This document shows positions 29,909 through 52,959 of a DNA stretch of 64,000 bases, in pieces (position 1 is the first letter of the stretch; each line of letters begins with the position of its first letter). The notes under the pieces were generated by a model, which searched no databases, was not told the origin of the DNA, and saw nothing but the letters and a program-made list of their open reading frames with translations. A program made the position numbers and the translations under genes. The stretch is taken from assembly GCA_035502855.1 (NCBI GenBank), contig DATJTX010000031.1:186001-250000 (forward strand), written 5' to 3'. Source of the DNA: Candidatus Baltobacteraceae bacterium (GTDB taxonomy: Bacteria > Vulcanimicrobiota > Vulcanimicrobiia > Vulcanimicrobiales > Vulcanimicrobiaceae).

Positions 29909-30270
29909 TGCACTGGCTGCTTCGCTTTCTGATCACCGCGGCGGCGCTCTGGCTGATCGCGGTCTACGTGCCTGGCTTTCACATGAACTCGTGGGTCGAC
30001 GCGCTGATCGCGGCCGTGATCTTCGGCTTGGTCAATGCGATCATCGGACCGATTCTCAAATTGATCTCGCTGCCGTTGACGATCCTGACGATCGGGCTTT
30101 TCTCGATCGTGATCAATTGGGCGCTCTTCGCGCTGGCCGTCTGGCTCTCGCCCGGTTTCAAGGCGACCGGCGCCCCCTGGCCGGCCTGGGAGTCGACGCT
30201 GGTCGGTTCGATCGTCATGATGCTGATCTCGATCTTCGTGACCACCCCGCTCACCCGCTCGTCATCCTGA
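29908..30270 (+). CDS. Phage holin-like family 4 membrane protein
   Basis: 120 residues, four predicted helices, with the family block FGLVNAIIGPILK (about 42-54) followed by LPLTILTIG. Despite the family name these are ordinary bacterial inner-membrane proteins of unknown role. The last residues (RSSS, stop) are encoded by the first bases of a palindromic repeat (CGTCATCCTGA), so the repeat supplies the stop codon. Confidence 0.85.
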   Translation: MHWLLRFLITAAALWLIAVYVPGFHMNSWVDALIAAVIFGLVNAIIGPILKLISLPLTILTIGLFSIVINWALFALAVWLSPGFKATGAPWPAWESTLVGSIVMMLISIFVTTPLTRSSS

Positions 30271-30300
30271 GGTGCGAGCGCAGCGAGCCTCGAAGGGTCG
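30262..30300 (+). repeat. Single GTCATCCTGAGG-type palindromic repeat
   Basis: Begins GTCATCCTGAGGTGCGAG, passes through a central CGCAGCG and ends CCTCGAAGG. Same family as the arrays at 49654-49845 and 50150-50323. It lies between the holin-like gene and tmRNA. Confidence 0.8.
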
Positions 30301-46945: not shown

Positions 46946-48887
46946 CGCGTGTGCGATCTTCGTGCTGCTCGCAACGACCGTCGTCCGTGCCGACACGGTT
47001 AGCTACGCATTCGAACGATCGTCGATAACCTTCACCCACATCACCCATACTGGAGGCGCAACCGCGATCGGCATCGACGATCCGGCGCTGCGCTCGCTGC
47101 TCAAAGCGCTCGGCGCCGCGCTGACCTGGCGCGCGGGAGACCGCACCGTGCTGATTGCAACGTCCGCGCCCGAGGTGATCAGCTTCGGCGTCGGCGACGA
47201 CCAGTACAGCATCGGCGCGCTCACCGCGCAGGCCGGCTTTGCACCGTATATGAACGGCACCGAAGTCTACCTTCCATTCGACGACCTGATGCGCGCGCTC
47301 GGCGTCGCGCCTGCGGGCGGCGTGCTCGAACGGCTCCTCACGTCGGTCGACGTCGAAGGATATGGTCCGCAGGCGGTGGTGGTCGCGCGCGGCGGCGGAA
47401 TCTTGCACGGGCGCGCGATCGGCGATACACCCGATCACCTCGTCTACGAATTCGACGGAGTGGGAACTACGCTCGCGCCCGAACGTACGGTCAACGCGGG
47501 CGGCATCCGCGATCTGCAGATTACATCCGAGGGAAGCGTGCGCGATCCGAAAACCTACCTCTCATTCGATCTCGCACCGAACACGCGGCACGATCCGCCG
47601 CAGTCGGGAAGCGGCGAATTCGAGATCGCTTTCGGCGCGAACGGCAGCGCTCCGCCGTTGATGGAGCCGCTGCGCGAATCCCTTGCCGTCGCGGGCGCCG
47701 CAGCGCTGGCGGTCGTGGCGGAAGCGACGACCGCGCCCGCTCCGGTAGTGACGGCATCTCCGCTCGCAAATGCGCCCGCGGCGGCGAACGCCACCGTCGA
47801 CAGCGTCAGCGTGAGCACACTCGCCGACGGCAGCGAAACAGTGGCGATCGGCGTGACCGGCGATGCATCCTACGAGTGGCATCGTCTGCGCGCGCCGGAC
47901 GACCGCTTCTGGATCGACATCAAAAACGCACAGCTTGCGGGCGGCCCGCTGGAACAAGCCGAGGCCAATCCGTTGATCGCGCTGCGCGTGCGCCAGATCG
48001 ATCCGCAAACGGTTCGCGTTGCGCTCTCGCTCGCCGGCGACACGGCGCTCGCGGTTTCACCCTCGGCGAGCGGAATCACGGTGAACGTCGGAACGACGAT
48101 GGTCGGCGAGAGCGCGCCGCGCGAGGGCACGGGCACGATCGGCGCGGTGGTCTCCGCCAACGAACCGCAGCCCTCGATCACGCCGGTTCCGGCCGACGAG
48201 TACGGCGCGAGCAATTCGGGCGACGACACCAGCTGGAAATTCGGCCCGCGCGGCTACGTGCCGACCAATCCGAAGCTGATCGTCATCGATCCGGGGCACG
48301 GCGGCGACGATCGCGGCTCGGTTCACGGTGATCTTCAAGAAGCCGTGCTCACCCTCGACATGGCCAAGCGCGTGCAGTCGATTCTGATTGCGCGCGGCTG
48401 GCAAGTGAAGATGACGCGCACGACCGATCACGACGTCGACGCGACGCCGACCAGCACGGCTGAAGCGAAGAAAATGGGATACGACAACGACGCCGCCGAC
48501 GATTTGCAGGCGCGCGACGACATCGCCAACGAGAGCGGCGCTCGATTGTTCGTCAGCATCCACTGCAATGCGTACATCAATAGCGGACCGAATGGAACGA
48601 CGGTCTACTACTACAAACCGATTGATCAGCCGTTGGCTCAGATCATGGATCGCGACATCGCAATGGCCGGTCTCGCGAAAGACGACGGCATCGTCAAGGA
48701 GCACTTGTACGTAACCGCACATGCCGACATGCCGGCTGTATTGATCGAGACGGCGTTTCTGACCAATCCGGGCGATTACGCCAAGCTTTCCTCACCCGAT
48801 TGGCGCGCGCAGATGGCCCAGGCGATCGCCAACGGCATCGACCAGTATGCGCGCGAGTACCCGGTCGTCGGCAGCACGCAGCAGTGA
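46908..48887 (+). CDS. N-acetylmuramoyl-L-alanine amidase with AMIN-like domains
   Basis: Zinc amidase that cuts the glycan-peptide bond in peptidoglycan. 659 residues: signal peptide, copper-amine-oxidase-N-like domain (about 33-138), AMIN-like region (about 145-245), Ala-rich linker, second AMIN-like domain (about 295-395), linker, then Amidase_3 (about 458-650) with zinc ligands in IDPGHGG, LQEAVLT and SIHCNA and the catalytic Glu in VLIETAFL. TTG 46908 after GGGGGGA is chosen; ATG 46917 is possible. Stop overlaps murI. Confidence 0.92.
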   Translation: MSSMNRFAARIGSACAIFVLLATTVVRADTVSYAFERSSITFTHITHTGGATAIGIDDPALRSLLKALGAALTWRAGDRTVLIATSAPEVISFGVGDDQYSIGALTAQAGFAPYMNGTEVYLPFDDLMRALGVAPAGGVLERLLTSVDVEGYGPQAVVVARGGGILHGRAIGDTPDHLVYEFDGVGTTLAPERTVNAGGIRDLQITSEGSVRDPKTYLSFDLAPNTRHDPPQSGSGEFEIAFGANGSAPPLMEPLRESLAVAGAAALAVVAEATTAPAPVVTASPLANAPAAANATVDSVSVSTLADGSETVAIGVTGDASYEWHRLRAPDDRFWIDIKNAQLAGGPLEQAEANPLIALRVRQIDPQTVRVALSLAGDTALAVSPSASGITVNVGTTMVGESAPREGTGTIGAVVSANEPQPSITPVPADEYGASNSGDDTSWKFGPRGYVPTNPKLIVIDPGHGGDDRGSVHGDLQEAVLTLDMAKRVQSILIARGWQVKMTRTTDHDVDATPTSTAEAKKMGYDNDAADDLQARDDIANESGARLFVSIHCNAYINSGPNGTTVYYYKPIDQPLAQIMDRDIAMAGLAKDDGIVKEHLYVTAHADMPAVLIETAFLTNPGDYAKLSSPDWRAQMAQAIANGIDQYAREYPVVGSTQQ

Positions 48888-49663
48888 TCGGCCTGTTCGA
48901 TTCGGGACTGGGCGGGTTGACCGTCATCCGGCGCGTACGCGAACGCCTGCCGGACGTCGACATCCTCTATTTCGCCGATCAAGCGCACGTGCCGTACGGC
49001 GGACGCGCGCCGGACGATCTCTTCGCGTTGGTGCAGAGCAACCTCGCCTGGCTCGACGAGCGCGGGGTTGAGGCGATCGTCATGGCGTGCAACACTTCCT
49101 GCGCGATCGCAGACGTGTACGGATGGCCCTCCACCCGCGCCGAGGTGTTCGACCTGCTCGACTCGGCGACGATCGCGCTGCAGCGGCGCGCCGCGCGGCG
49201 CGTGGGTGTCGTCGCGACCGAGGCGACCGTTCGGTCCGGGGCGTACGGCCGGCGCATTCGCAACGCCATCCAGCAGAGTGAAGTGTGGGAAGTCGCCGCT
49301 CCGCAATTGGTGCCGCTGGTCGAAGCGGGCGAACACGAGAGCGAGGCAGCGCGCATCGCCGTCGCGCGCGTTTGCGCGGAGCTTCCGCCCGGGCTCGACG
49401 CAGTCGTCTACGGCTGCACGCACTACCCGGTGCTCGAGGCGCATTTTCGCGCTGCGCTCGGACCGGCCGTTGAATTGGTCGATCCCGCGTTCGTCCAGGC
49501 GGCGCGGCTGGCGGAGTTCTTGGCGCTCGACGAAACGCCGGTCGGCTCCGGAACGACACGTTACGTAACCAGCGGCGATCCCGAGCGCTTTCGCGCCAGC
49601 GTCGCCCGCATCATGGAAGAACGCACGCCGGTGATCATGACTACCTCGCTCCTGTCATCCTGA
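48884..49663 (+). CDS. murI: Glutamate racemase
   Basis: Makes D-glutamate for peptidoglycan. 259 residues starting at GTG 48884 with IGLFDSGLGGLTV; the two catalytic cysteines are in MACNTS (near residue 68) and YGCTHYP (near residue 177). Coupled to the amidase by GTGA. The last codons (LLSS, stop) come from the first copy of a palindromic repeat, so the native C-terminus may have been altered by its insertion. Confidence 0.95.
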   Translation: MIGLFDSGLGGLTVIRRVRERLPDVDILYFADQAHVPYGGRAPDDLFALVQSNLAWLDERGVEAIVMACNTSCAIADVYGWPSTRAEVFDLLDSATIALQRRAARRVGVVATEATVRSGAYGRRIRNAIQQSEVWEVAAPQLVPLVEAGEHESEAARIAVARVCAELPPGLDAVVYGCTHYPVLEAHFRAALGPAVELVDPAFVQAARLAEFLALDETPVGSGTTRYVTSGDPERFRASVARIMEERTPVIMTTSLLSS

Positions 49664-49845
49664 GGTGCCGCGCGAAGCGCGGCCTCGAAGGACGAACGAG
49701 CCCGCCTCCTCCGTCATCCTGAGACGGCAGTGCCTCCGTCATCCTGAGATGCTAGTGCCTCCGTCATCCTGAGACGGCAGTGCCTCCGTCATCCTGAGGT
49801 GCCGCGCGAAGCGCGGCCTCGAAGGACGAGAAGGACGAGAGCGAC
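49654..49845 (+). repeat. Left repeat array: palindromic units and 25-bp tandem units
   Basis: Two full palindromic units (from 49654 and from 49788), each starting GTCATCCTGAGGTGCCGCG, turning at GCGAAGCGC and ending CCTCGAAGGAC. Between them are tandem 25-bp units beginning CCTCCGTCATCCTGAGA (49708, 49733, 49758, then merging into the second full unit at 49783). Units are truncated copies of the palindrome arm. Confidence 0.85.
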
Positions 49846-49885
49846 GGCGCTAGCGGACGGCAGTGCGCGCAGCAGAAGACGACGT

Positions 49886-50260
49886 ATGAAGCGGTTTTAC
49901 GTTTACATGCTACAGTGTGCCGACGATTCATTCTACGTCGGGATCACCAGCAAACTGGAGGAGCGTCTCGGGCAGCACGATTACGGCTGGGACGAACGCT
50001 GCTATACGTTCAAACGGCGGCCGTTACGCTGCGTCCACATTTCGGAATTTGCAACGTTTGACGACGCCGTCGCGTGGGAGAAGCATCTCAAGGGTTGGAG
50101 CCGCGCGAAAAAGCGCGCATTGGTAAATGGCGACTGGGGAGAAGTGCGGCGACTTGCAAAGCGTCCTTCTCGTTCCTTCTCGTCCTTCTCGTCCTTCGAG
50201 GCTCGGTCGCTGTGCGACCGAGCACCTCAGGATGACGGAAGCGAACGCACCTCAGGATGA
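49886..50260 (+). CDS. Small GIY-YIG nuclease-domain protein
   Basis: 124 residues. The GIY-YIG domain occupies about 1-85 (FYVYMLQCADDSFYVGIT, where VYM and YVG are the two signature strands, R in EERLGQH, and the conserved E of AVAWEKHLKGW). The C-terminal 35 residues (RSFSSFSSFEARSL ...) are encoded by the flanking palindromic repeat rather than by family sequence. Related to the single-domain YhbQ-like group. The gene is framed by repeat arrays facing each other. Confidence 0.9.
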   Translation: MKRFYVYMLQCADDSFYVGITSKLEERLGQHDYGWDERCYTFKRRPLRCVHISEFATFDDAVAWEKHLKGWSRAKKRALVNGDWGEVRRLAKRPSRSFSSFSSFEARSLCDRAPQDDGSERTSG

Positions 50261-50323
50261 CGGAGGCGAATGCACCTCAGCCCTTCGAGGCTCGCTTCGC
50301 TCGCACCTCAGGATGACGCCTAG
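50150..50323 (-). repeat. Right repeat array, inverted relative to the left one
   Basis: CTCGTCCTTCTCGTCCTTC stretches lead into CCTTCGAGGCTCGGTCGC, a loop, GCACCTCAGGATGACGG, then two partial copies and a last full unit (CCCTTCGAGGCTCGC ... GCACCTCAGGATGACG, 50279-50319). The orientation is the reverse complement of the array at 49654-49845. Confidence 0.85.
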
Positions 50324-52959
50324 CTAAACAGGGCGCGGCGCTGGCGTTCGAGTTCGACCGTCGAGGTCGCCGCGGAGCGGCTATCCTGGACGTGCGATTC
50401 GACCAATGCGGCCATCTGTGAGTAATCGCCGTACATCGCGTAGGCGCGGCGGGCTTCGTCGTTGGCCGCGTCTTCGGCCTGTTCGAGCGTAAACTGAGCC
50501 GAGCTGGCAAATTGCTCGATGCGCCCGAAGGCTTCTTGCGCCATGCGCGCCTGGCGCGCGCTGTGTTCGGCTTTGGCGACGCCGTTTTCGATTGCGACGC
50601 CGGCAGCCTTGCCGCGCGATTCCAGATCGCTGAGCACCTTGCGAATGTCGAGCGTCGAGGCTTTGGTCTTGTCGGCCAAGCCTCGCACCTCGCCGGCGAC
50701 GACGTTGAAGCCCTTGCCGTGATCGCCGGCGCGGGCGGCTTCGATCGCCGCGTTGAGCGCGAGTAGATTCGTCTTGTCGGAAACCGAGCGAACGAGGTTG
50801 ATGATGTTGAAGATCTGGTGCATCGACTTTGCGAATTGATCGAGCGCGCTGCGGCTCTGGACTGCCATCGCGGAGAGCACGTTGATCGTTTCGATCAACT
50901 CGCCGACCGTGTCGCGCATGATGCGCACCTGCGGTGCGACCTGCTCGAACCGCTCACCGAGCGCCTGAAAATCTTTGCCGAGCTGCTCGTTCGAGGAGCT
51001 CAGCCCCATCGATTCTTGCGAGAGCTGGTTGAGGCTGGCGATCTGCGAGCGTGATTGCGTCCTGATCGTGTCGCCGGTCGCGCGCACCGAGTTGACGGAG
51101 CGGTCGATCGACTCGACGATGTCGTTGAGGGTGAAGCCGTGCGTCGGCCCGCCGGCAAGATTGATGCGCGGCCGCCAGCTCTCCAAATTGCGGTTGAGCA
51201 GCAGGCGGAAGACGTCGGTGGGGAAGAGCGGCTCCATTCGTTCCCACACGAACCGGGCGGCCTTGACGAAATCTTCCCGTTCGTCCGGCGCGAGTTCGTG
51301 GACTTCGAGATTCTTGCGCAGCTCGGCGAGCGCGTGCGCCTCGTCTTCGGTCGCGATGCGCCGGTGATACTCGGTCGCCTCTTTGAAGGCGAGTTCGATG
51401 ATCGCGCGATCCTCCTCGGACAGCGAGCGCCAGCGCTCGACGTTGCCGAGCACGATCTGCGTGTTGTAGGTGTGCGCGGTCAGCGACAGGTAGCGCTGGA
51501 ATTCGTTGAGCCGCGCGCCCAGCGTGTTTGCGAGCGGGTTCTCCTGCGCGTCCACCTCGTGATTCTGAAGCGAACGGTAGAGATCTTGGAATGGAATCAC
51601 CTTTGGTGAAGCCCCGAGCGCGTGCATCAGCGCGAGGTAGACCACGGAGTCTTGGATGCGCACCCGCATCTTGCGCATGTCGGCCGGACGCCGGATCGGA
51701 TGCAAGTTGTTGGTGAAGTGTCGCATCCCGTTTTCGAAATACGCCAGGCCGTGCAAACCGAACGATTCGAACGAGGTCAGGATATGCCGGCCGAGATGGC
51801 TGTCGAGCAGCCGGTAGGCCGCGTCGCGGTCGGCGAACACGAACGGAAGATCGAGCAGTTGCGCGAGCGGCAGCAGCGCGCCTGCAACGTAGGTGGTGAC
51901 GCTCACCATGTCAAGCTCGCCCGAGCGAACGCGCAGCATCGCTTCCATTTCACTGCCGCCGGCGAACGGAATCTCGAGCTCGAACGTGAGCCGCCCGCTC
52001 GAAAGCTCGAGCGTGCGCTTCGCGACGTATTCCCACGCGCGCGACGGCGGATAGCCGAGCGGAAGCAGCGTCGCGACTTTGATCGTGGTGTGATCGGCCT
52101 TCGGCGCCGTGCGCGAGCGCGAGATGTATTCGATCTCCGCGCCGTAGTAGGCCAGGCGCTGCGTTGCAAAGGCGGATTCGAGCGCTTCGCGACCCTGCGC
52201 GGCCGCGACGTTCGCCAGTCCGTCGGTGGCCTTGCGCATCGCCTCCGCCGCCAGGCTGTGATTGCGTCCGCTGACCACCGCCCGATCGATGGTCACGGAC
52301 AGGTCGGCGGCAAGTTCGGCGATCTCGGCCAGCGACGTGCGTGCGACTTCAGCGAGCGGCGCCGATTCGGCGGAGCGTTCGGCGTTGGCGCGGACGGAGC
52401 GAATCGTTGCCTCGGCTTCGCGCTGGATCTCCAGCACGAGGGTCTTGATCGCCGAAGTCGATTCGTTGGTCGTCTTTGCCAACCGTCCGACCTCGCCGGC
52501 GACGACGGCGAATCCCAATCCATGCGTTCCGGCGCGCGCGGCCTCGATTGCGGCGTTGAGCGCGAGCAGCTGCGTTTCGTCGCTGACGTCTTCGACGAAC
52601 TCGGTCATGCGCCCGATCTCGCTCATGAGCCGGCCGAAGTTGTCCATCGCGGTAGCGGTGTCGGCCGAAAGCTCCGCGAGCTGCTGCACCGAGGTGAGTA
52701 AATTCTCGACGACTTCGAACGAGTTGCCCAAGTCGGAGGCGGCGGCTCGCGCCGAAGCTTGCGCGGTTTGCAGGCGCTCGGCGGTCTCACGCGAGGCAGC
52801 GGCAAGGGTGCCGGCGGTATCGGAAAGCGCGACCATGAGCGTGGTCTGTTCCTGCGCGGTCGCCGCGATCGCTTCGGAGGCGCGCCGAACGTCCTCGACC
52901 GCCTTGGAGACGCTCGCATTGAATCGGTCGAAGAGCGCGTCCTCGCGTTCGGAGATCAT
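50320..52959 (-). CDS. Soluble chemoreceptor with MCP-DctP-MCP architecture
   Basis: 879 residues without signal peptide or membrane helix. Residues about 1-280 form a coiled-coil MCP signalling domain with hairpin tip [19 protein letters not shown] (about 131-149). About 291-590 is a TRAP-type DctP solute-binding domain ([14 protein letters not shown] at its start, the ligand Arg region [11 protein letters not shown], and a [10 protein letters not shown] motif). About 600-879 is a second MCP domain with tip [17 protein letters not shown] (near 737). DctP proteins normally act in the periplasm, so a cytoplasmic ligand sensor for organic acids is inferred. Its stop lies at the edge of the repeat array. 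Confidence 0.85.

Follow-up and report, generated by a model that had tools for sequence, protein, structure and literature searches.

The window, by which we mean the whole 64-kb stretch of DNA analysed here, carries on its forward strand a gene (49886-50260, with its ATG at 49886) coding for a UPF0213/Slx1-like GIY-YIG nuclease of 124 aa. A profile search matched PF01541 to residues 4-76 of this protein (E 2.8e-17), and its AF2 model (pLDDT 93.8) has as nearest solved folds the UPF0213 proteins 1zg2 and 1ywl, followed by Slx1, a nuclease for branched DNA. The catalytic residues of the GIY-YIG domain (Tyr, Arg, and Glu) are conserved in 48 homologues. The upstream neighbour belongs to the Asp/Glu racemase family and is probably a glutamate racemase (48884-49663), and the downstream neighbour, on the opposite strand (50320-52959), combines chemotaxis-signalling and solute-binding domains. 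In the latter, a single chain of 879 aa joins MCP signalling domains (PF00015, in two stretches) to a TRAP-type DctP domain (PF03480, residues 305-575); such a fusion is unusual because DctP proteins are normally extracytoplasmic.

In both sequence and fold the window nuclease resembles the UPF0213/Slx1-like GIY-YIG proteins (1zg2, 1ywl), bacterial members of which fall in a 'non-Eukaryota Slx1' cluster (Dunin-Horkawicz, 2006; PMC1564403); the searched portion of that text reports neither a repeat association nor a function for them. With the GIY-YIG homing endonucleases of the I-TevI type it may share a selfish or mobile context. Unlike these, it is a free-standing, single-domain ORF with no intron or intein and no NUMOD tail, and the DNA that flanks it is repeat.

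Palindromic repeats (REPs) fill the intergenic space around the nuclease gene. Their core, GTCATCCTGAG, occurs exactly nine times in the window, where about 0.8 matches would be expected by chance with one mismatch allowed, and eight of these occurrences lie inside 49654-50317, five on the forward strand upstream of the gene and three on the reverse strand downstream. Genome-wide (3.33 Mb), the core is present in 65 copies and its reversed control in none, and eight of the 65 copies fall within the 664 bp of this locus. Upstream, the outermost REP is a complete hairpin (49654-49695, +) containing the TGA stop codon of the racemase gene. It is followed by three tandem 25-nt units made of the 5' half only (49708-49782, +; cores at 49713, 49738, and 49763) and by an inner complete hairpin (49788-49829, +) identical to the first at 42/42 nt, both complete copies reading GTCATCCTGAGGTGCCGCGCGAAGCGCGGCCTCGAAGGACGA (n = 2). 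Downstream, all in inverted orientation (-), are an inner complete REP whose upper hairpin is extended (50189-50236), a partial one consisting of the 5' half only (50247-50261; core 50251-50261), and an outermost complete one (50281-50317). Folded as single-stranded DNA, the repeat leaves a GTCA tag unpaired at the foot of a TCCT/AGGA lower stem, which is separated by a 2-nt GA bulge from an upper hairpin. The conserved domain of the nuclease ends at ~50161, and its last ~30 residues, from ~50168, are encoded by repeat sequence.

The sequence-only reading of this locus, namely opposing repeat arrays on either side of a GIY-YIG gene whose C-terminus is made of repeat sequence, holds, because repeats, gene, and repeat-derived tail were all found as it described them. 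It had also pointed to copies elsewhere in the window, and here it was right only in part: we found one exact lone core (30261-30271, +) and one with a single mismatch (62899), so that copies within the window are sparse and the dispersal is genome-wide. On contig C23 of the window genome, two opposing REP arrays (97279-97371, L023-L025; 105464-105522, L026-L029) lie ~8 kb apart and possibly bracket a larger segment.

In a survey of 117 genomes of the class, we could distinguish two GIY-YIG subfamilies, clade A, which includes the window gene, and clade B. Clade A genes have a fixed arrangement of forward cores upstream and reverse cores downstream, and clade B genes do not. Over the class, upstream REPs are forward in 78 cases and reverse in 6, and downstream REPs are reverse in 74 and forward in 9. 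Variant loci lacking the exact core have both arms of the lower stem changed together (GTCACCCTGAG..TCGAAGGG, GTCATCCCGAG..TCGAGGGA, GTCACGCTGAG..TCGAAGCG). A detector for NNNY-GAG..TCGA-R-N'N'N' that requires a perfect 4-bp stem placed a REP no more than 500 bp away from 46/53 clade A genes, 30/53 being bracketed by forward copies upstream and reverse copies downstream, against 7/28 and 0/28, respectively, for clade B. A general attraction of repeats by any GIY-YIG gene is ruled out by the absence of bracketing in clade B (0/28), and UvrC-type GIY-YIG matches in Sphingomonas, Bradyrhizobium, and Rhizobacter likewise have no flanking repeats.

The same association extends well outside the class. 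Selecting on protein similarity and nothing else, we took the 80 best homologues out of 85,000 species genomes; they belong to at least seven phyla (Eremiobacterota, Pseudomonadota, Bacteroidota, Chloroflexota, Calditrichota, Ignavibacteriota, and Cloacimonadota). A REP lies within 500 bp of 77/80 of them, compared to 0-3/80 for scrambled motifs, and REP density is 3.44/kb near the genes versus 0.21/kb further off. The outcomes that would have spoken against the association did not appear: repeats are not equally common by unrelated genes, since other ORFs of the same loci (at least 1 kb off) are bracketed in 1/71 and 0/150 cases versus 10/23 and 43/69 for the nuclease, and flanked homologues are the rule in other genomes and phyla. 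The lower stem of the REPs also covaries by compensation in the multi-phylum set, the three pairs outside Y-R being complementary in 63-68% of distinct elements (maximum 41-58% in 1000 shuffles). This covariation was clear with short loops and in the multi-phylum set only, an unconstrained search over 45-60 nt being too noisy and a 48-row alignment too diverse for a genome scan. The window case is one instance of a general rule.

Presence of the gene goes together with REP abundance. Among family genomes at least 90% complete, the median number of cores is 124 with an intact clade A gene (n = 31) and 7 without (n = 24; p = 5.6e-9), and no gene-bearing genome has fewer than 25. The contrast persists inside genera (permutation p = 5e-5, the floor of 20,000 permutations), which rules out a purely phylogenetic correlation of gene and REP number. 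Some REP-rich genomes have no intact clade A gene (for example G093, with 114 cores), and copies therefore outlive the gene. We also counted three REP types in the 117 genomes (TGAG with TCC, TGAG with CCC, and CGAG with TCC): the type beside the gene is the commonest elsewhere in the same genome at 45/49 loci, where 23.8 would be expected and at most 35 were obtained in 10,000 permutations. Two of the four exceptions lie in genomes (G035, G031) that each have two nuclease genes and two REP types, both abundant genome-wide.

Consistently, REP type follows the phylogeny of the nuclease. The maximum-likelihood tree leaves many forks open, since it rests on 93 columns; along it, lower-stem type changes 36 times versus a shuffled mean of 57 (minimum 50), and the Y base (T or C next to GAG) changes twice versus 7.6 times (minimum 5). 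A clade starred on the tree unites eight proteins from four genera (g1, g15, g26, g35), and CGAG is the dominant type in 7/8 of the corresponding genomes, the exception being G098. It includes a CGAG-type member of the window genome's own genus (G019), the window gene itself falling outside. Taken together, the shared place, fixed opposing orientation, matched type and copy number, and parallel phylogeny show gene and REPs to be cognate partners, insofar as sequences can show this.

Within the protein, K-G-W-x-R at ~69-73 goes with T next to GAG and departures from it tend to go with C, and the helix that bears this motif is a candidate reading element. In post hoc counts that ignore kinship, the motif versus departures gives 42 T/3 C versus 4 T/18 C in Sphingomonadaceae and 30 T/0 C versus 7 T/8 C in the window's class. 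R73H alone does not serve as the specificity switch: it holds in the window's class (38 R/T, 9 H/C, 1 H/T) but fails in Sphingomonadaceae, where R occurs with CGAG in 19 loci; the broader GWxR motif does better. H73, otherwise typical of CGAG-type enzymes, is also present in two clade A proteins (L079, L067) related to an independent CGAG pair (L073/L080); L079, which has H73 yet TGAG repeats, may be an intermediate state.

A second subfamily of repeat-associated nucleases, sister to clade A in Sphingomonadaceae and called clade C here, is characterized by the C-terminal motif ..WKxxLIExxNPxWxDL. Sphingomonas and Bradyrhizobium genomes have up to ten GIY-YIG genes. Clade C genes are flanked by a different hairpin, for example TCGTCATTCCCGCGAAGGCGGGAATCCATT (L256), with a CGTC tag, an 8-bp stem starting with AT, a 4-nt loop, and a CCA tail. 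When all 64 three-base tags were tested near clade C genes, GTC (40 near, 7 far) and TCA ranked joint first; TCA can lie within the very hairpins that bear the GTCA tag. Among 110 loci from 199 Sphingomonadaceae genomes, clade A has the bulged REP at 67/70 loci and a GTC-tagged 7-bp hairpin at 1/70, and clade C has them at 0/40 and 32/40 (21 bracketed), respectively, which is a clean double dissociation. Over the whole comparison, the cognate pairing spans at least seven phyla, two nuclease subfamilies, and two REP architectures.

The clade C hairpins conform to CGTC-tagged REPs as Di Nocera et al. (2013; PMC3733652) described them, including the unbulged stem of 8-9 bp, the loop of 4-5 nt, and the CCA tail. 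These elements were described as ones that 'apparently lack a dedicated transposase', transposase genes alone having been tested, and their origin was left open because no transposase adjoined them (PMC3733652). The window repeat shares with them the CGTC/TGTC tag followed by AT (CGTCATCC/TGTCATCC, with GTCA unpaired in the single-stranded fold). It differs in its 4-bp lower stem, 2-nt GA bulge, longer and variable upper hairpin, and missing CCA tail, and therefore represents a relative or new variant outside the four families of that study.

The genes next to the nuclease are common mainly to close relatives, and the locus is often conserved within genera; the unit is therefore largely vertical, not freely hopping, with many contexts overall. 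In genus g4 the mnmA/mqnC interval was found in several states: empty with a 21-bp gap (L215), nearly empty with two outer REP ends fused perfectly, CCTGTCATC-CT-GATGACAGG (L204), occupied by a REP array with no gene (L211), or filled by the nuclease cassette, which points one way in L203 and L208 and the opposite way in L205. Empty and filled states, as the sequence-only reading had envisaged, can thus be compared, at genus level and with no target-site duplication identified between them. A further candidate (doda/cyt, genus g32) differs between genomes and was discarded as a clean empty site because the neighbouring gene is inverted too. Elsewhere, related genomes with the same flanking genes carry the cassette in opposite orientations (L038 versus L050/L048; L056 versus L058). 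Tandem half elements retain the 5' tag but not the 3' arm, and several of them stop at the TCGA bulge. Site states and half elements fit cutting and copying at REP ends, and would also fit recombination between repeats.

At the same mnmA/mqnC site, opposing REPs can also enclose a gene for a GNAT acetyltransferase (L210, 3009-3557) or an NHL-repeat protein (L213, 2701-3696), a possible case of composite, REP-bounded cargo. Spurious ORFs running through REP arrays (L210, 2577-3017) encode peptides such as PFDYAQGDT, STALRVT, and CHPERSRR, and database entries with strings of this kind would serve as a quick marker of the repeat class.

The likeness to REP elements and their RAYT enzymes proposed from the sequence alone gains support from the agreement of copy number, repeat type, and nuclease phylogeny. 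RAYTs are defined by an inverted REP on either side of the gene, by cognate REPs in large numbers, and by agreeing trees (Nunvar, 2010; PMC2817692). As in REP/RAYT (REPIN-RAYT) systems, the GIY-YIG gene is single or low-copy and lies between two inverted REPs, cognate REPs of the same type are dispersed genome-wide, enzyme and REP phylogenies run parallel, and an unpaired tag sits at the hairpin foot. However, RAYT is an HUH Y1 transposase (PF01797), whereas the window protein has the unrelated, hydrolytic GIY-YIG fold and matches PF01541 only, and the tag is GTAG in RAYT-linked REPs and GTC(A)/CGTC in these. In all defining features but the enzyme family, the GIY-YIG system agrees with RAYTs: it works like one and is not one. 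The window genome lacks PF01797, as do nearly all REP-rich relatives, which rules out a RAYT as hidden mobiliser in the window genome. A literature search that excluded preprints and most subscription journals turned up no paper connecting GIY-YIG enzymes with REPs.

Our preferred explanation, which we hold to be likely, is a REP system in which a GIY-YIG nuclease takes the part of the RAYT, and we infer that this enzyme spreads the repeats by cleavage and mobilisation. The gene with its inverted flanking REPs would be the 'master' unit, and the scattered REPs its non-autonomous copies. The nuclease would recognise its own REP once the hairpin is extruded, as a single strand or a cruciform, and the features read would be the unpaired GTC(A) tag, the lower stem and, in the window's subfamily, the GA bulge. 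Given the Slx1-like fold, the conserved catalytic residues, and the missing RAYT, we propose that it cuts this hairpin, much as its Slx1-like relatives cut branched DNA. Repair of the break might then copy or insert REP sequence at new intergenic sites, or rearrange REPs. Because no covalent intermediate forms when GIY-YIG enzymes hydrolyse DNA, joining would be left to the replication and repair machinery of the host, in contrast to RAYT/IS200 transposition. GIY-YIG enzymes are not known to transpose DNA unaided, which counts against this explanation, as do the largely vertical history of the gene, REP-rich genomes with no intact gene such as G093, and the failure to find a target-site duplication.

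The main rival to mobilisation is a role in hairpin tolerance, the nuclease being an Slx1- or SbcCD-like guardian that recognises REP hairpins or cruciforms at replication forks and resolves them without spreading REPs, so that carrier genomes can bear many of them. Slx1 is indeed the closest fold after UPF0213, the gene is mostly vertical within genera, and the copy-number correlation fits tolerance as well as spread. A guardian, however, has no need to be encoded between opposing REP arrays whose orientation is fixed, or next to REPs of a specific type that switches with nuclease phylogeny, and cassettes missing or flipped at the same site also speak against it; we consider this role unlikely. 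We give still less credit to the nuclease gene being a passenger, one of several cargoes between opposing REPs that another transposase moves. The GNAT and NHL-repeat protein genes at mnmA/mqnC (L210, L213) speak for such a scenario, but the window genome has no RAYT, other ORFs are bracketed in at most 1/71 cases, nuclease presence, type, and phylogeny track the REPs, and two subfamilies matched to two REP architectures would be unexpected of a passenger.

REPs immediately up- and downstream of the ORF, with good folds, could also act on the stability or termination of the nuclease mRNA, dispersed copies being unrelated regulatory hairpins. Such autoregulation would leave the genome-wide match of type and number and the tandem half elements unexplained, and we judge it very improbable. 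As to chance or an assembly artefact, contigs do often end near nuclease genes, which indicates that the repeats trouble assembly, but complete or long contigs show the pairing too, as do isolates from many phyla, and controls are near zero, so that the control counts already refute this last explanation and leave it practically no weight.

Returning to the RAYT-like reading, CGTC-tagged REPs are widespread (PMC3733652), and UPF0213-like GIY-YIG nucleases are the best candidates for the missing mobilisers of this large palindromic-repeat class. More broadly, we lean towards the view that UPF0213-type GIY-YIG proteins are dedicated mobilisers of CGTC-type REPs across bacteria, a second and independent class beside the HUH RAYTs, with hairpin reading specific to each subfamily and a K-x-W-x-x-x-K-K helix that helps to set the base pair. 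With this association, the repeats gain a specific enzyme, each enzyme gains a matching substrate, and the code between them can be tested. If true, it would account for a large share of the unexplained palindromic repeats of Alphaproteobacteria, Bacteroidota, Eremiobacterota, and others, would provide a function for 'hypothetical' UPF0213/GIY-YIG genes, and would mean that REP parasitism or domestication arose at least twice, with unrelated enzymes.
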